Under the pieces are notes generated by a model. The model made no database searches. It had not been told where the DNA came from and worked only from the letters and a program-made list of their open reading frames with translations. The position numbers were made by a program, and so were the translations under genes. Shown piece by piece: positions 298-10,207 of a DNA stretch of 10,213 nt. This stretch comes from an uncultured Eubacteriales bacterium. GTDB taxonomy: Bacteria > Bacillota > Clostridia > Peptostreptococcales > Anaerovoracaceae. The stretch is from the NCBI GenBank assembly GCA_902803185.1, contig CADCOV010000025.1, forward strand, positions 1 through 10,213, in the 5' to 3' direction. The stretch's first letter is position 1. Each line of letters starts with the position of its first letter.

Positions 298-326
298 TTG
301 ACATTTGTTGTCTCATCACATATAAT
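298..326 (+). promoter_or_regulatory. Consensus sigma-A promoter of the T-box/oxidoreductase operon
   Basis: TTGACA at 298-303 and TATAAT at 321-326 are both perfect matches, separated by the ideal 17 bp. Transcription should start near 333. Such a promoter should be strong and constitutive, which fits an operon regulated afterwards by attenuation in the leader. Confidence 0.9.
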
Positions 327-365
327 CTTCAATAGTTTCGTTTAGAAACACACAATTTCACATCC

Positions 366-610
366 CAAAGACTTTGATGGAGACAGTAAGTTCTGGTGGG
401 CGATCCCAGCGAGCCGGTGATGGTGAGAGACCGGCATCATAGAAGCCAGATCCGAATATCACTCCGGAGTTGCGGCCCGAACGGTCATCCCAGTAGGCGC
501 CGACGGTGTTCCCCGTTATCGGAAGCGTATATGTTGGTATACTAGACTGGGTGGTACAGCGAGAGTGCATTTTGAGCTTTCGTCCCGTTCTGGGCGAAAG
601 CTTTTTGTTT
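366..610 (+). promoter_or_regulatory. T-box riboswitch, probable isoleucine (AUC) specifier
   Basis: Most canonical T-box elements are present in order. Stem I has an AGTA (385-388) opposite GAA (454-456), forming the specifier loop. GGAG (379-382) pairs with CTCC (462-465) below the loop, and TCTGG pairs with CCAGA above it. The apical part shows the CAGCGAG bulge (408-414) and a GCCGGT/ACCGGC hairpin whose loop contains GATGGTG. A stem IIA/B-like region follows: AGTAGG, then ACGG pairing with CCGT. Stem III is GTATA/TATAC (527-531 with 538-542). The T-box motif GGGTGGTACAGCG (549-561) has the TGGT bulge at 552-555, complementary to an ACCA tRNA end. The specifier is read as ATC (458-460) followed by the expected purine A461. 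ATC is the C-ending codon in the right place; TAT one base earlier is less likely. Uncharged tRNA would stabilise the antiterminator and switch on the genes downstream. Confidence 0.93.
575..610 (+). terminator. T-box attenuator (intrinsic terminator)
   Basis: AGCTTTCG-T-CCC (575-586) pairs with GGGCGAAAGCT (592-602) around a short loop, followed by a run of T interrupted by one G. The CGTCCC of the 5' arm can instead pair with GGG of the T-box motif upstream to form the antiterminator, the standard mutually exclusive arrangement. It lies 22-30 nt before the first start codon. Confidence 0.9.
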
Positions 611-631
611 ACCGAAGGGAGTTTTGACCGA

Positions 632-1210
632 ATGAGCAAAGACATCATCGAGATCCGCTGGCACGGCAGAGGCGGGCAGGGCGCCAAGACGGCGAGCCTG
701 CTCCTGGCCGACGCGGCCTTCATGGGCGGCAAATACGTCCAGTCCTTCCCGGAGTACGGGCCGGAGCGCTCCGGCGCGCCGATCACCGCCTACAACCGCA
801 TCTCCGACAAACGGTGCTCGATCCATTCCAACATCTACGAACCGGATTACGTGGTGGTGGTGGACGAGACCCTGCTGGAGAGCGTGGACGTGACCGCCGG
901 GCTGAGCCCGGAGGGCGCCGTCGTGATCAACTCCGCCAAACCGGCCTCCGCGCTCAGGCCTTTGCTCAGGGGCTACGCCGGCCGGGTCTTCACCATCGAC
1001 GCCGCCGCGATCTCCAGGCATTACCTGGGCGCCTACTTCCCGAACACCCCGATGCTGGCCGCCATCGTCGCCGTCAGCCGCTGCGTGGCGCCGGACCAGT
1101 TCCTGCGGGACATGGAGGTCTCCTACCGCCACAAATTCGCGACCAAACCGCAGGTGGTCCAGGGCAATCTGGACTGCCTCGCCGCCGCCATGAGAGAGGT
1201 GAAAGAGTGA
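632..1210 (+). CDS. porG: 2-oxoacid:ferredoxin oxidoreductase, gamma subunit
   Basis: A 192-residue cytoplasmic subunit, the usual length for a separate gamma chain of pyruvate or branched-chain 2-oxoacid:ferredoxin oxidoreductases. The N-terminal WHGRGGQGAKTAS glycine-rich segment (about residues 9-21) and the FPEYGPERSGAP segment (about 39-50) are family hallmarks; in characterised enzymes this domain contributes to CoA binding. The start at 632 is chosen because it follows an AAGGGAG site with 10 nt spacing and lies just after the attenuator. An in-frame ATG at 506 lies inside the T-box structure and would add 42 residues unlike the family. The gene is first in a gamma-delta-alpha-beta operon, and its stop overlaps the next start (TGATG). 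The symbol denotes the subunit family; pyruvate versus branched-chain substrate cannot be decided from sequence. Confidence 0.95.
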   Translation: MSKDIIEIRWHGRGGQGAKTASLLLADAAFMGGKYVQSFPEYGPERSGAPITAYNRISDKRCSIHSNIYEPDYVVVVDETLLESVDVTAGLSPEGAVVINSAKPASALRPLLRGYAGRVFTIDAAAISRHYLGAYFPNTPMLAAIVAVSRCVAPDQFLRDMEVSYRHKFATKPQVVQGNLDCLAAAMREVKE

Positions 1211-1512: not shown

Positions 1513-2711
1513 TGAGCATCCGTGACAGACTTTCCGGCAACGAGGCCATCGCCAACGCGATGCGCCAGATCAATCCGGACGTGTTCGCCATGTTCCCGAT
1601 CACCCCGTCCACCGAGATCCCGCAGTATTTCGCCCAGTATGTGGCGGACGGCAAAGTGGACACCGAGTTCGTCTGCGTGGAGTCCGAGCACTCCTCCATG
1701 TCCGCCTGCATCGGCGCGGAGGCGGCGGGCTGCCGGGCCATCACGGCGACCTCCTCCGCCGGCCTTTCCTTCATGACCGAGATGCTCTTTGTCGCCGCGT
1801 CCGCCAGGCTTCCGATCGTGCTGGCGGTGGCGAACCGGGCGCTCACAGGGCCGATCAACATCAACCACGACTACTCCGACTCCATGGCGGAGCGTGACTC
1901 CGGCTTCATCCAGATCTACGCGGAAAACAACCAGGAGGCCTACGACAACTACCTCCAGGCCCACCGCATCGGCGAGACCCCGGACGTGCGCCTGCCGGTG
2001 ATGATCTGCGAGGACGGCTTCATCACCTCCCACGCCCTGGAGAACATCGAGCTGCAGAGCGACGAGGACGTGAAGGCCTTCGTCGGCGAATACCACCCGG
2101 AGAACTACCTCCTCAAGCACGAGAACCCTCTGGCCGTCGGCCCTTACGGCACCTCCCCTTACTACATGGAGGCCCGGGTCGCCCAGGCGGAAGCCATGAA
2201 GAACGCCAAGCGGGCGATCCTGGACGTGGCCGCCGACTTTGAGCGGACCTTCGGCAGACACTACGGCCTCTTCGAGGCCTACCGGATGGAGGACGCGGAG
2301 ACCGCCGTGGTCCTGATGGGCTCCTCCGCCGGCACCGCCAAAGCCGCCTGCGACGAGCTCAGAGAGCAGGGGCAGAAGGTGGGCGTCATCAAAATCCGGG
2401 TCTTCCGCCCGTTCCCGGGCGAGGAGCTGGCCGCGGCCCTCGCCCACTGCAAGGCCGTCGCCGTCCTGGACAAGAGCGAGGGGTTCAGCGCCTGCGGCGG
2501 GCCTTTGTTCGCGGAGACCGCAGCCGCCTGCGTGAACCTGGACCAGAGGCCGAAGATGGTGGATATCGTCTACGGTCTGGGCGGCCGGGACTTCACCGTC
2601 GCCCAGGCGAAGCGGGTCTTCGCCCGCCTGGAGAAGATCAAAGAGACCGGCGAGACCGGGCCGGTCTACAGCCACATGGGACAGCGTGACGACAGAGAGG
2701 AGGTGCAGTAG
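1512..2711 (+). CDS. porA: 2-oxoacid:ferredoxin oxidoreductase, alpha subunit
   Basis: A 399-residue subunit, the typical alpha length. The N-terminal pyrimidine-binding domain shows FPITPSTEIPQYF (residues 28-40), the VESEHSSM segment (57-63), ATSSAGLSFM (79-88) and the highly conserved SMAERDSGFIQIYAENNQEAYD region (124-145). The C-terminal transketolase-like domain has VVLMGSSAGTAK (266-277) and GVIKIRVFRPFP (291-302). Together with beta it forms the thiamine diphosphate active site that converts a 2-oxoacid plus CoA to acyl-CoA, CO2 and reduced ferredoxin, reversibly. Third codon positions are almost all G or C, suggesting high expression or long residence in this genome. The gene stops 1 bp before the beta start codon, and the beta ribosome binding site lies inside its last codons. 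Substrate (pyruvate or branched chain) is not resolved. Confidence 0.96.
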   Translation: MSIRDRLSGNEAIANAMRQINPDVFAMFPITPSTEIPQYFAQYVADGKVDTEFVCVESEHSSMSACIGAEAAGCRAITATSSAGLSFMTEMLFVAASARLPIVLAVANRALTGPININHDYSDSMAERDSGFIQIYAENNQEAYDNYLQAHRIGETPDVRLPVMICEDGFITSHALENIELQSDEDVKAFVGEYHPENYLLKHENPLAVGPYGTSPYYMEARVAQAEAMKNAKRAILDVAADFERTFGRHYGLFEAYRMEDAETAVVLMGSSAGTAKAACDELREQGQKVGVIKIRVFRPFPGEELAAALAHCKAVAVLDKSEGFSACGGPLFAETAAACVNLDQRPKMVDIVYGLGGRDFTVAQAKRVFARLEKIKETGETGPVYSHMGQRDDREEVQ

Positions 2712-2712
2712 C

Positions 2713-3642
2713 ATGGCATATGTGCTGAGAGAAGAGATGAGCAAGCCGGAGCGGTTCGCGCCGGGCCACAGGCTCTGCGCCGGCTGCGGCGCCGGGATCA
2801 CCTGCCGGGCCATGATGCGCGCCCTGGATCCGGAGGACAAGGCGGTCATCTGCAACGCCACCTCCTGCCTGGAGGTCTCCTCCTTCCAGTACCCGTACAC
2901 CGCCTGGGAGGATTCCTACATCCACAGCGCCTTCGAAAACACGGCGGCCACCGCCGCGGGCGTGGAATCCGCTTACCGGCTGAAGAAGAAGAAGGGCCTG
3001 ATCAAAGACAACTATAAGATCCTCGCCATCGGCGGCGACGGCGGCACCTACGACATCGGGTTCCAGTCCATCTCCGGCGCCTTCGAGCGGGGCCACGACT
3101 TCACCTACTTCTGCTACGACAACGAGGCCTACATGAACACCGGCACCCAGCGCTCCAGCGCCACCCCGGTGTTCGCCAGCGCCACCACCACCCCTGCCGG
3201 TCTGGAGAGCGTGGGCAAGAAGCAGGTCCAGAAGGACCTCACCCGGATCATCGTCGCCCACGGCTCCCCGTACGTGGCCCAGACCACCTTCCTGGGGAAC
3301 TTCAAGGACTTCCACCAGAAGGCCCACCGGGCGATCTACACGGAGGGCCCGACCTTCGTGAACGTCCTCTGCCCTTGCCCGAGGGGCTGGGGCTACGACG
3401 CGGAGCTCCTGCCGGAGATCTGCAAGCTGGCGGTGGAGACCTGCTTCTGGCCGCTGTATGAAGTCGTGAACGGCGTCTACTACCTGAACTACGAGCCGAA
3501 AAAGAAACTCCCGATCGAGGAGTTCCTGCGGCCGCAGAACCGGTTCCGCCACATGTTCAAGCCGGGCAACGAGTGGACCATCGAGGCCGCCCAGAAGTAC
3601 GTGGACGACCGCTGGGAAGCGCTCCTGGCCCAATGTGAATGA
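2713..3642 (+). CDS. porB: 2-oxoacid:ferredoxin oxidoreductase, beta subunit (thiamine diphosphate-binding)
   Basis: A 309-residue subunit of normal family length. GHRLCAGCGAGIT (residues 18-30) provides Cys22 and Cys25. With Cys52 (NATSCLEVSS) and Cys222 (CPCPRGW) these match the four ligands of the proximal [4Fe-4S] cluster. The thiamine diphosphate/Mg motif is GGDGGTYDIG (107-116), followed by YDNEAYMNTGTQRS (135-148). YPYTAWEDSYIHSAFEN (60-76), LAVET-FWPLYEV (239-251) and YVDDRWEALL near the end are also typical of pyruvate and 2-oxoisovalerate enzymes. The start is preceded by AGGAGGTG at 7 nt spacing, located within the alpha gene. It is the last gene of the operon, with a strong hairpin 11 bp after its stop. 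No key residue appears to be missing. Confidence 0.96.
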   Translation: MAYVLREEMSKPERFAPGHRLCAGCGAGITCRAMMRALDPEDKAVICNATSCLEVSSFQYPYTAWEDSYIHSAFENTAATAAGVESAYRLKKKKGLIKDNYKILAIGGDGGTYDIGFQSISGAFERGHDFTYFCYDNEAYMNTGTQRSSATPVFASATTTPAGLESVGKKQVQKDLTRIIVAHGSPYVAQTTFLGNFKDFHQKAHRAIYTEGPTFVNVLCPCPRGWGYDAELLPEICKLAVETCFWPLYEVVNGVYYLNYEPKKKLPIEEFLRPQNRFRHMFKPGNEWTIEAAQKYVDDRWEALLAQCE

Positions 3643-3686: not shown

Positions 3687-3703
3687 TAACCGCGGAACAA
3701 GTG

Positions 3704-4003
3704 TTACCATTGGTAACGACGTCATTCTTACTCAAAATATACCGCGATCCGGCGCCTGGGCCGGCCCGGGCGGTGAAAAACGCTCCTCTGAACAGGCCTT
3801 ACCATTGGTAACGACGTCATTTTTACTCAAAACATGCCGTGACCCGGCGCCTGGGCCGGCCCGAACGGCGAAAACCGCTCCTCTGAACAGGCCTTACCAT
3901 TGGTAACGACGTCATTTTTACTCAAAATATGCTCGTGACCCGGCATCTGGGCCGGCCCGGACGGCGAAAACCACTCCACAGAACAGGCCTTACCATTGGT
4001 AAC
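3704..4003. repeat. Tandem array of about 95-bp units with palindromic core and conserved hairpin
   Basis: Three complete units start at 3704, 3799 and 3894 (95, 95 and 96 bp), and a truncated fourth starts at 3990. Each begins with TTACCATTGGTAA, an inverted repeat around a central T, followed by CGACGTCATT, an ACTCAAAA segment, a GC-rich block containing GGGCCGGCCC, and an end reading GAACAGGCC. The GC-rich block can fold as a hairpin: a 5-bp outer stem, an internal loop, a CCGGC/GCCGG inner stem and a 6-base loop. The stems are kept in all three copies despite base changes. No convincing gene or ribosome binding site lies in the array. It sits between two converging operons, so it holds no obvious promoter role. 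Confidence 0.9.
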
Positions 4004-4051
4004 GCAGCCACCACACACTGAAATAAAGCGCAATGATCACGCCGAGGCACG

Positions 4052-4103: not shown

Positions 4104-5456
4104 TTATTCTCCCTTCGGGAGCCTCCTGAAGTACCAGAGCAGGAACGGGATGGAGGTCGCCGCCGTCAGCACGTCCGCCACCGGCTGGGCGATCTCGATG
4201 CCCGGAAGGCCGATGGTCCGACTCAGGATCAGCACCAGCGGGATGAAGTAGATCCCGGAGCGCATCATGGAAAGCACCGACGCCGGCAGCGCCTTGCCGG
4301 AACTCTGCAGGGTCATGTTGGTGAGGACGGACAGAGGCTGTGTGACCAGCGCGATGCTGGCGTACCGCATGGCCCTCGTCCCGATCGCGATGACGTCCGG
4401 ATCGTCCCGGAACAGCTGCACGATCTGCGGCGCCATGATAAACACCACCGTTCCCGCCACGATCATCAGCCCCATGGCCATCTTCATGGCCGTCTTATAG
4501 GCGGTACGCACCCGGTCATACTTCTCCGCGCCGTAGTTGAAGCTGCAGATCGGCTGATAGCCCTGCCCCAGGCCCAGGCCGAAGGAGAACAGGAACATGG
4601 CCACCCGGTTGGTGATCGCCATGGCGGAGATCGCCACGTCGCCCCACACGCCGGCGCAGTTGTTCAGCACGATGGTCGCCAGGCTCCCCAGGGACTGCCT
4701 CAGCAGGCTCGGCGCTCCCACGGTCATGATCTCCCAGACATCCCGGATATCGCGGGTGTAATACCGGATCGAGATGCGGCTCTGGGTGATCCTCCGGAGG
4801 AACATGGAGAGCAAAATGGAAAAGCTCACCATCTGGGACAGCGCCGTCGCGAGCCCGGCTCCCGCCGTCCCCATGCCGAACCCGAAGATCAAAACCGGGT
4901 CCAGCACGATGTTCAGCACCGCGCCGCTGACCAGGCCCCGCATGGCCTTGGCGGCCAGGCCCTCATAGCGCAGGATGTTGTTCATCACGTAGCCGCCCAT
5001 GATGAAGGGCGCGCCGAGGATGATGAACCGGCAGTACTGCTTGGCGTGGGGCAGGATCGTCTCCGTACTCCCAAGGAGCCGCAGCATCGGTTCCAGCAGC
5101 AGCAGGCTCACCACCGCGATCACGAGGCTGACCCCAAGGGCCGTGAAAAAGGCCGTGGACGCATAGCGGCTCGCGTCCTTCGCCCGTTTCTTTCCCAGGA
5201 GCCGGGCGATGATGCTGCCGGACCCCTGTCCGAACATGAAGGCGACGGACTGCAGGATCGCCATGTAGCCGAAAACGATGCCGATGGCTCCGGAAGCCGC
5301 GTTCCCCAGCTGCCCGACAAAGGCCGCGTCCGCCATGTTGTAGATGCTGGTGACCAGCATGCTGATGGTCGTCGGGATCGCAAGCCGGATGAGCAGCGGC
5401 GCCACCGGCGTCTCCGTCATCCTCGTATACTGGTCCATGTTCTTCCCGTTCTGCAT
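4104..5456 (-). CDS. MATE-family multidrug/metabolite efflux protein
   Basis: A 450-residue polytopic membrane protein of the usual MATE length, with about 12 hydrophobic segments in two halves. Recognisable features are PLLIRLAIPTTISMLVTSIYNMADAAFVGQLG (start of the first half, split here as residues 20-51), GQGSGSIIARLLGKKR (77-92), NIVLDPVLIFGFGMGTAGAG (182-201, with the conserved Asn, Asp and Pro) and GLGQGYQPICSFNYGAEKYD (295-314), the second-half hallmark of MepA/DinF-type clostridial members. These transporters export cationic drugs or metabolites using a sodium or proton gradient; the substrate here is unknown. Two starts are plausible: ATG 5456, or ATG 5438 (MDQYTRM), which has GGGAAG 5 nt upstream. 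The gene has its own candidate promoter and terminator, so it is probably monocistronic, 90 bp after the ABC pair. Confidence 0.93.
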   Translation of the reverse strand: MQNGKNMDQYTRMTETPVAPLLIRLAIPTTISMLVTSIYNMADAAFVGQLGNAASGAIGIVFGYMAILQSVAFMFGQGSGSIIARLLGKKRAKDASRYASTAFFTALGVSLVIAVVSLLLLEPMLRLLGSTETILPHAKQYCRFIILGAPFIMGGYVMNNILRYEGLAAKAMRGLVSGAVLNIVLDPVLIFGFGMGTAGAGLATALSQMVSFSILLSMFLRRITQSRISIRYYTRDIRDVWEIMTVGAPSLLRQSLGSLATIVLNNCAGVWGDVAISAMAITNRVAMFLFSFGLGLGQGYQPICSFNYGAEKYDRVRTAYKTAMKMAMGLMIVAGTVVFIMAPQIVQLFRDDPDVIAIGTRAMRYASIALVTQPLSVLTNMTLQSSGKALPASVLSMMRSGIYFIPLVLILSRTIGLPGIEIAQPVADVLTAATSIPFLLWYFRRLPKGE

Positions 5457-5495
5457 CTGTGTTCCCGCTTTCTGTCAAATACTGTATCTCAGTCC

Positions 5496-5524
5496 ATTAT
5501 ACACTTGCGGGCCGGGGGAGTCTA
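5496..5524 (-). promoter_or_regulatory. Candidate promoter of the MATE gene
   Basis: On the minus strand TATAAT is at 5501-5496. TAGACT at 5524-5519 is a 4-of-6 match to the -35 consensus at exactly 17 bp spacing. It lies in the 90-bp gap between the ABC stop and the MATE start. A weak imperfect hairpin (GAAT-CC/GG-ATTC, about 5527-5545) just upstream could partly terminate the ABC transcript. Confidence 0.55.
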
Positions 5525-5546
5525 ATAGAATCCTGGATCGGTATTC

Positions 5547-7283
5547 TCATTTCTCCTGCTGCTTTTCCCACATCGCAGCATAGATGCCTTTCTTTTGCAA
5601 CAGTTCTGTATGTGTTCCTTCCTCTGCGATCCTACCATTGTCCAATACGATGATCCGATCAAAGTGTTCCGCCAAAACAAGGCGATGGGTGACCATCAGG
5701 ACGGTCTTCTCCTCTGGCAGTTGATCCAGGGTCTGCCTGATCACGGCCTCCGACTCCTTGTCTAAGGCAGAGGTCGGTTCGTCTAAAAGAAGGATAGGCG
5801 CATCCCGATAGAGTGCTCTCGCAAGGTTGATCCGCTGGATCTCCCCACCTGAGAAGCCTTTATTTCCTTCCGGTGGGATCGCAGAAAGCCCGCCCGCCCT
5901 CTCGATGCAGGATAACACGTTCGCTGACATTGCCGCTTTTTCCACCTTCTTCAGATCAGGTGCGCTGTCCATGGCGATATTCCCAGCGATAGAACGATGG
6001 AACAGGCCGCTGTTCTGAGGCATATACGCAAACATCGCAAGCCATTTCCCGGATGATGTCCGCTGCTGCGTCATGCCCCCTGCGCAGATCGCCCCTTCGT
6101 CAGGGTGATACAGGCCAAGGATGAGCCGCAGCAATGTCGTCTTGCCGCTCCCGGATCCGCCAACGACGGCAACCTTCTCTCCCGGATGGATCGTTAGGGA
6201 AATGTGATGCAGAACAGGGTGATCCCCGTAGGCAAACCCGATATCCGTCAACTGCAGGGCCGGAAGCCCGAACATTGCGGGCTCTGCTTTTGTATCATCC
6301 GCCTCCGGCATCTGCGGGATCTCCGTGATCTCCCGGATCCGCCTTACATTCGGGGCGAATTGGCGGATCAAAACGCTGCGGTTCGGAAATGCCGCCATCA
6401 TCTGCCCGATCTGGTCTGCAAGCGGCAGCGCAAGCATGACATCGGAAAAGGCGATGCTGCCTTTGTCGGCAAGCCAGGCACCGAGAAGCAGCAGGGAGAG
6501 CACAGTGAACCCGTCCGCAAAGAATACCATAAGGCCCCTTCTCAGACCCAGGAAAGCATCCGTTTTCGCGATCGCAGAGGAAGGCGCTTTGCTCTTTGCC
6601 TCCAGGCGCGCATGAAAAACGTCCTGGAGATGAAAGGTCCTGATCTCCACCGCTCCGTTGATGCATTCCTGAAGGAAAGCCAAAACACTGCTTTTCCCTT
6701 CTGCGATCCTGAGATTGAGTCCCTGAAGTTTTCTGGCTCCCACACGCATCAGCAGCATATTGATCCCGGAACAGGCGACACAGAGCAGCGCGATCCGCCA
6801 ATCCACCCACACCAGCCAAAGACAGGAAAGCACGCCGGAAAGGATCGGCTGCCAGATCCACCCGCTCATATAGTAACCGATGAGATTGACCGCCTGCGGC
6901 AGGTCGACATTACAGCGGGCCAGCACCTCTTCCCCTGTGAATCCGGAAGCAGCTGTCTCTTCTCCCCTGATCCAGGCAGTCAGCATTTCGCCGCGAATAT
7001 CGAGCTGCACTCTTTGCTCGATACTGCAAAACCCCACCGCAGCGAATCCGGACAAAGCTGCCAGGATCAATACCAGGACAATGTATAGAAGCGGTGCTTT
7101 CCCCGTAAACGCATTGTCTCCTGTGGCCAACGCAAGGATCTGCGTCAGGAGGACACCGACTGCGGAGAACAATACAAACAAGGCAATGCCGTTCAGGAAA
7201 GTGCAGGTCCAAAACCGTCCTCTGAGGCCGCTGCTCTTTTCCTTCAGCCACCTATAGTCCGCATAATCCTGTTTCGCATCCAT
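5547..7283 (-). CDS. ABC exporter half-transporter (membrane domain plus ATPase), second of a pair
   Basis: A 578-residue half-transporter. An N-terminal six-helix exporter domain covers about residues 25-310 and the ATPase about 340-578. All nucleotide-binding motifs are visible: A-loop Tyr352, Walker A GGSGSGKT (375-382, Lys381), Q-loop Gln423, signature FSGGE (477-481), Walker B LLLDE (498-502, Asp501, catalytic Glu502), the SALD D-loop, and switch His533. The signature carries Glu instead of the usual Gln, a known tolerated variant. The start codon overlaps the upstream ABC stop by one base (TGATG), so the two are translated together and probably form a heterodimer. Exported substrate is unknown; family relatives move drugs, lipids or peptides. 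Codon use is less GC-biased than in the oxidoreductase genes. Confidence 0.93.
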   Translation of the reverse strand: MDAKQDYADYRWLKEKSSGLRGRFWTCTFLNGIALFVLFSAVGVLLTQILALATGDNAFTGKAPLLYIVLVLILAALSGFAAVGFCSIEQRVQLDIRGEMLTAWIRGEETAASGFTGEEVLARCNVDLPQAVNLIGYYMSGWIWQPILSGVLSCLWLVWVDWRIALLCVACSGINMLLMRVGARKLQGLNLRIAEGKSSVLAFLQECINGAVEIRTFHLQDVFHARLEAKSKAPSSAIAKTDAFLGLRRGLMVFFADGFTVLSLLLLGAWLADKGSIAFSDVMLALPLADQIGQMMAAFPNRSVLIRQFAPNVRRIREITEIPQMPEADDTKAEPAMFGLPALQLTDIGFAYGDHPVLHHISLTIHPGEKVAVVGGSGSGKTTLLRLILGLYHPDEGAICAGGMTQQRTSSGKWLAMFAYMPQNSGLFHRSIAGNIAMDSAPDLKKVEKAAMSANVLSCIERAGGLSAIPPEGNKGFSGGEIQRINLARALYRDAPILLLDEPTSALDKESEAVIRQTLDQLPEEKTVLMVTHRLVLAEHFDRIIVLDNGRIAEEGTHTELLQKKGIYAAMWEKQQEK

Positions 7284-8890
7284 CAGGCTTCCCCCCTTCC
7301 TGTGAGCCGGCCGTCCTCGAAAGTGTACACCTCATCAAAGAGAGGGAGGAACTCGCGCTGGTGGATCACCATGACGATCGTACGTCCATCCCGCTCCTCA
7401 AGGATGCATTTCAGCACCTGTTCTGCCGTGACAGCATCCAAAGCAGACAGGGATTCGTCAAAGAGCAATACATCCGCACCACTTAGCAATGCCCTGGCCA
7501 CCGCCAACCGCTGCTTTTGACCTCCGCTCATCGTTCCTGCATCGCTTGACAATATGGTCTCCAGCCCGTCCGGCAGCATGTCAAGATAATCCCGCAGGCT
7601 CACTTCCTCACAGACCTTCCGGATCTCTGTCTCCGGCACTGCCTCTCCGCCTCTGCCCCAAGTAAGGTTCTCTCGGATACTGCCGGTAAAAATGAACGGC
7701 GTTTGTTTTGTCAAAACAGTGGGTGCCGCTGACACACTCCCCTTCTGCGGCGCTAAAAGGCCTGCGATCAGCTGGAGCGCTGTCGATTTCCCGCAGCCGC
7801 TTTCTCCCGCAAAGGCAACGCAGCTTCCCTTCTTTATGGAGAGACTCAGATCCTCTATCGCCGGATGAGCCTCGCCCGGGTAGCTGTAGGTAACATGGGC
7901 CAGGCAGATCGCATCTTCCTTGCCGGTCCTTTCACCAGCTGAAGGTTCCTGCAATTCAAGGCTTCCATCCTTCCATAACCCTTTCAGCCTGGTCATTGCC
8001 GGCCAGCTCTTTGACAGGGCCACAACATCATCCACATAATGCAGCTGTTCTGAGACCACTGATTGACAGAGATAGTATGCGGTCAGAAATGTGCTGACCG
8101 GAAGCATTCCCCTGGCAATCATATGGAATCCCGCCAAACAAACACTGAATATCGGGATCATCCCCAGTGCGATCCCCGAAGCCCTGAGCGGCATCGTCAC
8201 ACAGGCTTGCCTGATTCGGGCTGAGACCAATGCCTCTCCATCTGCATTGACACCCTCCATAGCGAAATCGACCGCATTCCCGGTCTTGACCAGAAGCCTG
8301 TTCCCCACCACGTCTGCAAGATCAGTATTCAGGGCGACTTCCTGTTCCTTTGCAGCCTCCACTGCGGTCCTCGTGATCCTGCTGATCAGGATCTGCAGCA
8401 GCACAGAAGCGCATACTGCCGCCAGATAGATCCCCGTCACTGCCGGGGCGATCCAAAAGAGAAACGCGATCACCAGGATCAACCGCACTGATTTGACGAT
8501 CACCCCGGGCAGCGTCTCCTTCAATACCGTCAGCACTTCCTCTGTATCGGCGGACGCCCTGTTGATCAGATCTCCCTTGTGCCGCAGCAGAATGTGATCG
8601 ACGGGGATCGTCATGATCGCATGCAAAGAGGACCGGGACATCGCAGTGAAGGCATACCCTCCAGCCAGACCGCAAAGAATCAGGAACAGCGCCTCTGCAG
8701 CTGCCGAAGCGCCATACAGGGAAACGGCATCAGCTGCAAGTCTTCCGCTCCCTGCCAGTCCGTGACCGGCAAGGTAGTCTGTCAATGTGCCCATCGCCTC
8801 TGCGCAAAGGATCGATATACAGGTCATCATTGCAGCGATGATGACCCATGCTAATAGATAAAGCGGATACCTTGGCAGGTATCTTTTCAT
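7283..8890 (-). CDS. ABC exporter half-transporter (membrane domain plus ATPase), first of a pair
   Basis: A 535-residue half-transporter, somewhat short for the family. The membrane domain spans about residues 8-285, with ILLRHKGDLINRASADTEEV (100-119) as the coupling-region motif typical of ABC exporters. The ATPase domain has A-loop Tyr335 or Tyr337, Walker A GESGCGKST (362-370, Lys368), Q-loop Gln396, signature MSGGQKQR (454-461), Walker B LLFDE (475-479, catalytic Glu479), the SALD D-loop and switch His510. The start has a G-rich GGGGGTGG site about 4-5 nt upstream and an extended -10 promoter before it. It overlaps the following ABC gene by one base, which supports a two-protein exporter. 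No adjacent peptide precursor or immunity gene is visible, so the cargo cannot be inferred. Confidence 0.93.
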   Translation of the reverse strand: MKRYLPRYPLYLLAWVIIAAMMTCISILCAEAMGTLTDYLAGHGLAGSGRLAADAVSLYGASAAAEALFLILCGLAGGYAFTAMSRSSLHAIMTIPVDHILLRHKGDLINRASADTEEVLTVLKETLPGVIVKSVRLILVIAFLFWIAPAVTGIYLAAVCASVLLQILISRITRTAVEAAKEQEVALNTDLADVVGNRLLVKTGNAVDFAMEGVNADGEALVSARIRQACVTMPLRASGIALGMIPIFSVCLAGFHMIARGMLPVSTFLTAYYLCQSVVSEQLHYVDDVVALSKSWPAMTRLKGLWKDGSLELQEPSAGERTGKEDAICLAHVTYSYPGEAHPAIEDLSLSIKKGSCVAFAGESGCGKSTALQLIAGLLAPQKGSVSAAPTVLTKQTPFIFTGSIRENLTWGRGGEAVPETEIRKVCEEVSLRDYLDMLPDGLETILSSDAGTMSGGQKQRLAVARALLSGADVLLFDESLSALDAVTAEQVLKCILEERDGRTIVMVIHQREFLPLFDEVYTFEDGRLTGRGEA

Positions 8891-9064: not shown

Positions 9065-10207
9065 CTATTTCTCCAGCGTCTTCAGGTATGCGGAGAGGTG
9101 CTCCAGGCCTTCCTCCAGCCAGTTGCGGTCGGTGAATGCACCGTAGCCCAGGCGGAAGGTGTTCTCCATGTCGAAGCAGGCGCCGTGGGTGACCAGGATG
9201 CGGTCCTTCTCCATCATGTCGATGGCCATGGAGGTGGAATCCATGTCGTAGTCGTAGCTCACCAGGCAGGTGGTGCCCATGGCGTCGCCGTGGATGGCGA
9301 CGTGCGGTTCCGCCGCAGCCCAGTCGTAGACCATCTTCTTGTTCGGCAGCAGGATGGAACGGGAGCGCTCCCAGACCTTCTTGTAGTTTTCCATCGCGAT
9401 GGAGGCCACGACCTCATCAAAGATACCGCAGCAGATCGTGTTGTAGGAGCGGCGGTTCACCATCTCGAAGTACATATCAGGATCCTTGCAGATGACCCAG
9501 CCGATACGGGTACCGGCCATGGAGAACATCTTGGAGACGCTGCTGAGGCTGATGGCTTTGTCGTAACCGAAGTCCACGATGGAGGTCAGCAGGTTCTCAT
9601 CCAGGCCTCTGTAGACCTCGTCGCAGAGGATCCAGGCGTCGAACTCCTTCGCGATGTCGACCACCTTCTGGAGCTGCTCCTTGTTCAGGGTCGCGCCCGT
9701 CGGGTTGTTCGGGTTGGTCAGGATGATCATCTTGGTATCGGCGTCGCACTGGGCTCTCAGATCCTCCGGGTTCAGCATGTACTCGTCCTCCGCCTTCAGC
9801 TGGACGATGCGGGTCTCGATGCCCATGCCCTTCGGGATGTCATAGTGCTGCTGGTAGGACGGCTTGACGACGACGCAGTTGTCCCCTTTCTCGAGGATCG
9901 TCATGATGACCATGTCGTTGGCGCCGGTGCCGCCGATGGTCATGATGACCTGGTCCGGCGTGACGTTGCCGTTCGGATAAAGCCCGCAGACCGCTTCCTT
10001 GACTCTCGGGGAACCGGTGGAGTCACCGTGGTGATAGTGAAGGCTCATGGTCTCCACGAACTTCAGGAACTCCTTCTCGTCCTGTCCGGTCACGCGGAAC
10101 AGCTCGTCCATGGTCAAAGCCTTGACGCAGCTGGAACCGAAATTATACTTCGCCTTGGAATCCATAGGATTCAGCCAATGCTCCACTCCAAAATACGCTA
10201 ATTTCAT
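9065..10207 (-). CDS. PLP-dependent class I/II aminotransferase (fold type I)
   Basis: A complete 380-residue enzyme of the aspartate aminotransferase superfamily. Visible cofactor and substrate elements are GGTGAND (residues 92-98, phosphate-binding loop), NPNNPTG (165-171), CDEVYRG (195-201, with Asp196 and Tyr199 contacting PLP), SSVSKMFSMAGTRIGW (222-237, Schiff-base Lys226) and FRLGYG near the end (Arg352, the expected substrate carboxylate contact). It would transfer an amino group between an amino acid and a 2-oxoacid in the cytoplasm; substrate specificity cannot be read from sequence. Its N-terminus is clearly paralogous to the fragment at the opposite end of this window. The window ends 6 nt before the start codon, so the promoter and ribosome binding site are not visible. 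A strong terminator follows. Confidence 0.93.
   Translation of the reverse strand: MKLAYFGVEHWLNPMDSKAKYNFGSSCVKALTMDELFRVTGQDEKEFLKFVETMSLHYHHGDSTGSPRVKEAVCGLYPNGNVTPDQVIMTIGGTGANDMVIMTILEKGDNCVVVKPSYQQHYDIPKGMGIETRIVQLKAEDEYMLNPEDLRAQCDADTKMIILTNPNNPTGATLNKEQLQKVVDIAKEFDAWILCDEVYRGLDENLLTSIVDFGYDKAISLSSVSKMFSMAGTRIGWVICKDPDMYFEMVNRRSYNTICCGIFDEVVASIAMENYKKVWERSRSILLPNKKMVYDWAAAEPHVAIHGDAMGTTCLVSYDYDMDSTSMAIDMMEKDRILVTHGACFDMENTFRLGYGAFTDRNWLEEGLEHLSAYLKTLEK

Follow-up and report, generated by a model that had tools for sequence, protein, structure and literature searches.

According to a survey, 62% of T-box leaders stand before tRNA ligase genes, 18% before biosynthesis genes and 12% before transport genes (PMC2494555). 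Isoleucine can be reached in anaerobes by carboxylation of 2-methylbutyrate (PMC2812497, citing Robinson and Allison 1969), and a ferredoxin-dependent conversion of propionyl-coenzyme A (CoA) to 2-ketobutyrate is described in several anaerobes (PMC7476758, citing Buchanan 1969 and others). The latter paper, from 2020, also suggests that pyruvate formate-lyase may account for 2-ketobutyrate synthesis in at least some organisms (PMC7476758). Here, a T-box leader is described before a porGDAB operon on contig CADCOV010000025.1 (C25) of an uncultured Eubacteriales bacterium. The entire contig of 10,213 bases is the window of this report and belongs to a metagenome-assembled genome of 1.73 Mb in 304 contigs that is 79% complete. 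On balance, we consider it probable that a tRNA-Ile T-box attenuates porGDAB and that the enzyme is anabolic, most likely turning propionyl-CoA into 2-oxobutyrate.

The T-boxes of isoleucyl-tRNA synthetase genes (ileS; RF00230) resemble the por T-box in architecture, AUC specifier, UGGU bulge and transcription terminator; unlike them, it precedes a 2-oxoacid:ferredoxin oxidoreductase. The T-boxes before leuA in the same genome (CUC) and before a CimA-like citramalate synthase gene in genome G388 (AUC) likewise put a biosynthetic gene under the charging of its own amino acid, whereas the enzyme type differs, since por would provide a ferredoxin-dependent carboxylation. PorGDAB is like the archaeal/Thermotoga-type four-subunit pyruvate synthase in its four subunits, domain make-up and best model scores, but it falls under the equivalog cut-offs of the pyruvate synthase models. 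The 2-ketobutyrate:ferredoxin oxidoreductase activity of Buchanan 1969, as cited in PMC7476758, is the same 2-oxobutyrate-for-isoleucine reaction that is proposed here; that system is an enzyme activity, whereas por is known as genes whose regulation fits such an activity. No T-box before a por or vor operon is described in the accessible part of the open PMC T-box literature (PMC2700814, PMC7778990, PMC5171806, PMC7583486, PMC12452182, PMC5640608, PMC3840689 and PMC2494555), two main comparative papers lying outside its reach. The word 'oxidoreductase' is not found in the main text, as distinct from the supplements, of the T-box papers checked for it. Absence of a T-box/por link from print is not established.

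A T-box leader directly before porG

The leader is composed of the following elements, all on the plus strand.

298–326, +: sigma-A promoter TTGACA-17-TATAAT, 12 of 12 consensus bases matched
365–590, +: full-length T-box leader by RF00230, 90.6 bits, E = 3.1e-19, model positions 1–219 of 219
367–601, +: the T-box leader by the covariance model R1 described below, 214 bits, the window row having been included when R1 was built
371–470, +: Stem I with specifier loop and apical motifs (Rfam alignment, mapped pairs, covariation)
458–460, +: specifier codon AUC (Ile), invariant in 38 of 38 copies
473–515, +: helices from Stem I to Stem III, including the CGG/CCG helix at 504–515 (Rfam pairs)
528–543, +: Stem III (Rfam pairs; 70.5% of cells paired, the second weakest of ten helices)
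548–587, +: antiterminator with UGGU at 552–555, complementary to a tRNA ending in ACCA (Rfam pairs)
574–603, +: intrinsic terminator hairpin of 12 pairs followed by a T run, overlapping the antiterminator

The earlier note on this DNA had proposed a perfect sigma-A promoter and a complete T-box directly before porG-D-A-B, and each of these points holds. The promoter matches in full, and 200–700 holds one promoter-like site, where shuffles average 0.6 of any quality. RF00230 aligns over its whole length, the Stem I motifs AGTA (385–388), GGTG (422–425) and GAA (454–456) can be read in the sequence, the CGG/CCG helix and the terminator are located, and porG begins at 632 in an operon of order G-D-A-B. 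The T-box sequence GGGTGGTACAGCG is read at 549–561, and the bulge ends in ACA where ACC is usual. The terminator region (565–610) folds at −19.4 kcal/mol (z = −4.47), far stabler than shuffles. Antiterminator and terminator have 574–587 in common and are mutually exclusive structures.

The RF00230 score is 2.4 bits under the Rfam gathering cut-off of 93 bits, which is a database threshold and no biological trait. The earlier note had made a covariance-model score below threshold its test of refutation, and by that rule the T-box would fall; the E-value, the conserved copies in 37 relatives and the covariation outweigh it. The ileS, trpB-like and leuA T-boxes of the same genome are also under the gathering score (79.2, 74.5 and 62.4 bits), and only two of the 12 por T-box loci scanned at that score pass it (L078 and L079). 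Searched by E-value in seven of the other ten, RF00230 finds the T-box in all seven (58.5–92.6 bits, E = 3.7e-10 or better). We regard a real T-box in this leader as virtually certain, and from its predicted structure it very likely acts as a transcription attenuator.

Conservation and covariation among por loci

Relatives were the best 80 of 581 confirmed loci from one PorA scan of named genomes. In eight of them the contig does not include porG or does not reach 300 bases upstream of it, so 72 loci can be evaluated. Model R1 was built on the window and 33 relative leaders (34 rows) and finds a T-box directly before porG in 37 of the 72 with 154–239 bits; four of these loci (L056, L057, L059, L076) were not among its training rows. 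In the relatives' upstream DNA the T-box takes the form GGTGGTAYARCG, and GGTGGT is invariant throughout the 34-row alignment. In every one of the 38 copies a hairpin (−13.3 to −29.3 kcal/mol) is accompanied by a run of four or more T, the hairpin taken being the best one near the CGTCC motif in each copy. Among 19 loci without an R1 match before porG, none has a gathering-level T-box, which is a weak test because the gathering score misses most.

Covariation was counted with the Rfam pairs on the 34-row alignment. Both sides change in 25 of the 46 pairs, and the both-side-changed cells number 153; shuffles give 64 on average, and sliding the partners gives no more than 41. Helix 6 has four of six pairs changed on both sides and helix 7 is invariant. 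A pairing of the specifier region with the T-box bulge proposed by RNAalifold was disbelieved, and the Rfam pairs were counted instead. The predicted T-box is conserved before por in the window's genome and in many relatives.

The specifier codon is read as isoleucine AUC

The specifier loop of the por T-box reads GAAU-AUC-A. The codon is the same in all 38 copies and the base preceding it varies (A in 15, T in 14, G in 6, C in 3). The loop GAAUAUCAC is identical in the por T-box and the ileS T-box of the same genome. That genome's other T-boxes (L002, L003 and L004) are Ile/ileS, Trp/TrpB-like and Leu/leuA, and the same register gives UGG before the trpB-like gene and CUC before leuA. Because the register is consistent across the T-boxes of one genome, the por codon is isoleucine AUC. 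A tRNA whose discriminator base is A would match the UGGU bulge. The isoleucine specificity claimed earlier is upheld, and we hold it with high confidence for the predicted por T-box. The genome's own ileS T-box differs from the por T-box in its ACCGCG end, which is of the ordinary kind, and R1 gives it 27.6 bits; the por T-box is thus no simple copy of it.

The por operon encodes a 2-oxoacid:ferredoxin oxidoreductase

632–1210, +: porG, gamma subunit (TIGR02175 201 bits, cut-off 81; PF01558 127.5 bits)
1210–1512, +: porD, delta (ferredoxin-like) subunit (TIGR02179 85.8 bits, cut-off 60)
1512–2711, +: porA, alpha subunit (PF01855 233.7 bits; PF17147 100.7 bits)
2713–3642, +: porB, beta subunit, thiamine pyrophosphate (TPP)-binding (PF02775 63.6 bits)

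porG starts with ATG, and the G/D and D/A junctions are one-base stop/start overlaps. All four Pfam domain types (POR, Fer4, POR_N/PFOR_II and TPP) are above the gathering score. The gamma and delta subunits pass the cut-offs of TIGR subfamily models; alpha and beta stay below every NCBIfam cut-off. The best NCBIfam model is PorA_Arch for PorA (478.7 bits, cut-off 550) and PRK11865 for PorB (347, cut-off 405), with TIGR02177 at 41 (cut-off 262) for PorB, and the pyruvate synthase equivalogs PorC (174, cut-off 270) and PorD (80, cut-off 120) also stay short. PorGDAB is therefore not filed as pyruvate synthase; its predicted assignment is a 2-oxoacid:ferredoxin oxidoreductase of the pyruvate/2-ketoisovalerate family. 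Within that family, PorA scores 479 and 407 bits with pyruvate models and 342 with the 2-ketoisovalerate model, and PorB 347 versus 273.

PorA residues 114–123 (window 1851–1880) read PININHDYSD, compared with PINIWNDHQD in 9bt4. Asn118 is present in every one of the 79 relatives, and the position is Trp in 9bt4 and Phe in 1b0p. The residues adjoining it are presumably part of the substrate pocket, which the Asn118 region may shape; this is a lead only.

Isoleucine and pyruvate enzymes in the same genomes

The window's genome has a separate full-length NifJ pyruvate:ferredoxin oxidoreductase and ilvA over cut-off, with no cimA over cut-off. NifJ is over cut-off in 27 of the 38 T-box-por genomes and present as long pieces (670–882 bits) in three more; por is thus not the sole pyruvate enzyme in the majority of these genomes. 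The gene ilvC, whose product works downstream of 2-oxobutyrate, passes its cut-off in 32 of the 38. Over the same set, ilvA is over cut-off in 25 genomes, cimA in ten (counting G029, which also has a split ilvA match below cut-off) and neither in three. Por as a substitute for IlvA or CimA is unsupported, as 35 of 38 have one or the other. The three remaining genomes (G016, G027, G048), any of which may be incomplete, have ilvC. cimA was sought by TIGR00977 only, which would miss a CimA of the NF042433 type; the CimA-like protein of G388 scores 168 on TIGR00977 (cut-off 450). The ilvA/cimA searches took in 28 of the 35 T-box-less por loci, leaving out L032, L038, L039, L040, L041, L047 and L067.

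Twelve other genomes belong to the window's genus. PorA is 62% identical in G002 and 41% in G004; the remaining ten (G001, G003 and G005–G012) have only remoter PorA relatives of 28–35% identity and form the same-genus set without this por. In that set ilvA is over cut-off in five and ilvC in six, which is no clean anticorrelation.

Related T-boxes and the history of the por T-box

R1 has matches in 344 of the 391 genomes of the class, mostly other T-boxes. Among the 29 best matches in these genomes besides the window (120–187 bits), none has por in the stretch fetched. In 23 of the 29 an isoleucyl-tRNA synthetase gene lies downstream on the T-box strand, its product 69–100% identical to that of L134; its start is within about 205 bases in 22 and at 903 in one (L136). 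One match (L140) stands before leuS. Another (L122/L180:3433-4956, in G388; 89 bits with the Rfam model and 187 with R1) is followed after about 50 bases by the CimA-like citramalate synthase gene, whose best model is NF042433 (655–679 bits, cut-off 950). In G161 (L135; L179:13467-15813) the T-box is followed by a helix-turn-helix/cupin regulator and then an acyl-CoA synthetase, best model MbcS (394 bits, cut-off 850), which may be a further step of isoleucine salvage controlled by a T-box. Three matches (L127, L129, L133) have a methyltransferase-like gene about 115–119 bases after the T-box, which is Pfam Methyltransf_25 at L129:1838-2680 and alike by eye in the other two; no isoleucine link is apparent for it. 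AUC is also read in the T-boxes before the citramalate synthase, acyl-CoA synthetase and methyltransferase-like genes. The predicted relatives of the por T-box so serve isoleucine supply, one of them another source of 2-oxobutyrate.

A PorA tree was made by a quick method from 80 rows, the window and 79 loci, with the partial L052 omitted and seven rows unlabelled. The T-box label changes six times on it, compared with 24.6 for shuffled labels. Records with T-box and por are placed in Oscillospiraceae, Butyricicoccaceae, Syntrophomonadaceae, Desulfitobacteriaceae, Peptococcaceae and Desulfallaceae, with two in Lachnospiraceae. The T-box is absent from a big clade, mostly Lachnospiraceae, and from five rows (L051, L066, L067, L068, L084). 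The window clusters with the T-box loci L007, L008, L009 and L018 (Shimodaira-Hasegawa-like approximate likelihood ratio test, SH-aLRT, 93). Judged by these comparisons, the por T-box belongs to the ileS type, and it probably reached the window's genome along with por.

Proposed mechanism and alternatives

By analogy with the T-box family, uncharged tRNA-Ile(GAU) would pair with the AUC specifier and its ACCA end with the UGGU bulge, stabilising the antiterminator. RNA polymerase would then read through into porGDAB, and charged tRNA-Ile would have no such effect. Isoleucine shortage would in this way switch porGDAB on. Following T-box logic, PorGDAB would run anabolically as a ferredoxin-dependent carboxylase yielding an isoleucine precursor, and the likeliest reaction would be propionyl-CoA + CO2 + 2 reduced ferredoxin to 2-oxobutyrate. 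Por would supplement threonine deaminase or citramalate synthase with a further input that serves isoleucine alone, useful when propionate is available.

Induction by isoleucine shortage and the separate NifJ in 27 of 38 genomes argue for the anabolic direction. That the Por enzyme makes an isoleucine precursor is likely, slightly more so given the genes downstream of the related T-boxes. Four points favour propionyl-CoA as substrate: 2-oxobutyrate feeds isoleucine, not valine or leucine; both PorA and PorB match pyruvate models better than 2-ketoisovalerate models; 32 of 38 genomes retain ilvC; and a close T-box relative precedes citramalate synthase, another 2-oxobutyrate source. The choice is tentative and stands just short of an even chance.

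Several observations weigh against this reading. A tRNA-Ile is not found among the 17 tRNAs of the 79%-complete genome. The segment 541–587 folded alone forms the antiterminator (−12.0 kcal/mol) no better than shuffles do (z = −0.66); together with the stable terminator, this weak lone antiterminator fits an element needing tRNA. Counted in fixed columns, the terminator has no covariation beyond shuffles, and 35 of the 72 evaluable por loci are without a T-box by R1. No Por subunit reaches an equivalog cut-off. With ilvA or cimA in 35 of 38 genomes, por is not needed to make 2-oxobutyrate; the three genomes with neither may hold a type of CimA that scores low on TIGR00977, and G008 of the same genus has ilvC yet neither ilvA nor cimA over cut-off and lacks this por. 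In eight of the 38 genomes, of which six belong to the Syntrophomonas clade, NifJ is seen at most as contig-end pieces, and in these eight por might serve pyruvate too. Besides one CbiT-like gene, no por neighbour recurs in more than five of the 80 loci by a rough clustering (crude open reading frame caller, antisense frames kept, small clusters left unannotated), so context does not name the substrate of Por.

The same switch could serve branched fatty acid salvage, with Por carboxylating 2-methylbutyryl-CoA, and perhaps other branched acyl-CoAs, to 3-methyl-2-oxopentanoate. The 2-methylbutyrate route is given as probable in Methanobrevibacter ruminantium and traced to rumen bacteria in PMC2812497 (citing Robinson and Allison 1969), and the record titles of many relatives (uncounted) name rumen or gut samples. 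PorA has Asn118 in place of the Trp of 9bt4 and the Phe of 1b0p. The acyl-CoA synthetase behind a related Ile T-box fits a CoA-activated acid, and its best model leans to this route, MbcS being an enzyme that we take to activate 2-methylbutyrate. The PorA and PorB scores point the other way, an enzyme for branched-chain substrates ought to respond to valine or leucine as well, and ilvC, kept in 32 of 38 genomes, is unneeded for isoleucine by this route, though valine would need it. We judge salvage of this kind unlikely. A somewhat smaller chance goes to an anabolic pyruvate synthase (acetyl-CoA to pyruvate) under isoleucine control, the citramalate route using two pyruvates per isoleucine. 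Its highest-scoring models are indeed pyruvate models, and six of the eight genomes without NifJ beyond contig-end pieces have cimA. A main pyruvate synthase would, however, be off whenever isoleucine is plentiful, NifJ is over cut-off or in long pieces in most T-box-por genomes, and the window's genome pairs NifJ with ilvA and has no cimA over cut-off.

The earlier note saw a catabolic-type enzyme that ties central redox metabolism to one amino acid. 2-Oxoacid oxidoreductases are in general reversible and often fermentative, but induction of a catabolic one at isoleucine shortage would burn a scarce precursor, and NifJ is separately present in 27 of 38 genomes, including a full-length copy in the window's own. 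Induction at isoleucine shortage fits an isoleucine-making enzyme instead; the catabolic type is not borne out, the tie to central redox metabolism is unsupported, and a fermentative role under isoleucine charging is very improbable. The note's further description of the target as unexpected is right in that the target is unusual, but it probably still belongs to an expected class, amino acid biosynthesis. A functionless leader that resembles a T-box through decay or by chance might be argued for from the score under the Rfam gathering cut-off and the 35 of 72 evaluable relatives without a T-box. An E-value of 3e-19, 25 of 46 pairs changing on both sides (153 cells versus a mean of 64 in shuffles), and an AUC codon and terminator hairpin in 38 of 38 copies leave this the least credible explanation, with next to no weight.

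Genes and repeats around por

Rough open reading frame clustering places a gene for a protein of about 300 residues next to por in 52 of 80 loci (e.g. L050:1818-2717, from Agathobaculum desmolans, and L058:6157-7095), and not in the window. Its C-terminal part is CbiT-like, with TIGR02469 at 39.5–45.2 bits (cut-off 78.3) in L026 and the best two of three scanned; a structure model (mean predicted local distance difference test score, pLDDT, 83.8) matches CbiT structures (3e05), and the glycine-rich S-adenosylmethionine motif looks degenerate by eye. Matches above 330 bits occur in 31 of 38 T-box-por genomes, in seven of seven T-box-less por genomes tested, in none of the ten same-genus genomes without this por and not in the window's genome. 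This predicted protein is linked to por, not to the T-box.

Downstream of porB, window positions 3690–4004 hold four 29-base units with the palindrome TTACCATTGGTAAC, 95–96 bases apart, inside three 95-base direct repeats. A 23-base motif, allowing up to 3 mismatches, has only two more copies in the genome, on contig C256 and 95 bases apart. Related aminotransferases, best model PRK07324, lie at both ends of the window on the minus strand: one at 1–132, cut by the contig end and divergent from por (18 bits, E = 0.001), and one at 9065–10207, 5 kb downstream (384 bits, cut-off 476). Between them, 4104–8890 on the minus strand encodes a MATE-family exporter (TIGR00797 over cut-off) and two tandem ATP-binding cassette (ABC) exporter genes whose best models, MsbA and CydC, are below cut-off. 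A SCARNA20 match at 1912–2075 on the minus strand (E = 0.71) was taken as chance.

Significance

By mechanism this is an ordinary T-box; its target is unusual and conserved and points to the function of a generic enzyme. Ten of the 12 scanned por T-boxes are under the Rfam gathering score, and such leaders may escape routine annotation. T-box codons have guided the naming of transporters, according to the survey (PMC2494555), and the AUC codon points to the purpose of a generic 2-oxoacid:ferredoxin oxidoreductase. The por operon is a concrete candidate for the ferredoxin-dependent route from propionate to isoleucine and makes the pyruvate formate-lyase question, as put in PMC7476758, testable. 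It is possible, at somewhat less than an even chance, that this por family is a dedicated 2-oxobutyrate synthase, a ferredoxin-driven and CO2-fixing entry to isoleucine from propionyl-CoA that isoleucine starvation turns on by way of a T-box retained across several Bacillota families. If true, an activity cited from 1969 would thereby gain a gene.

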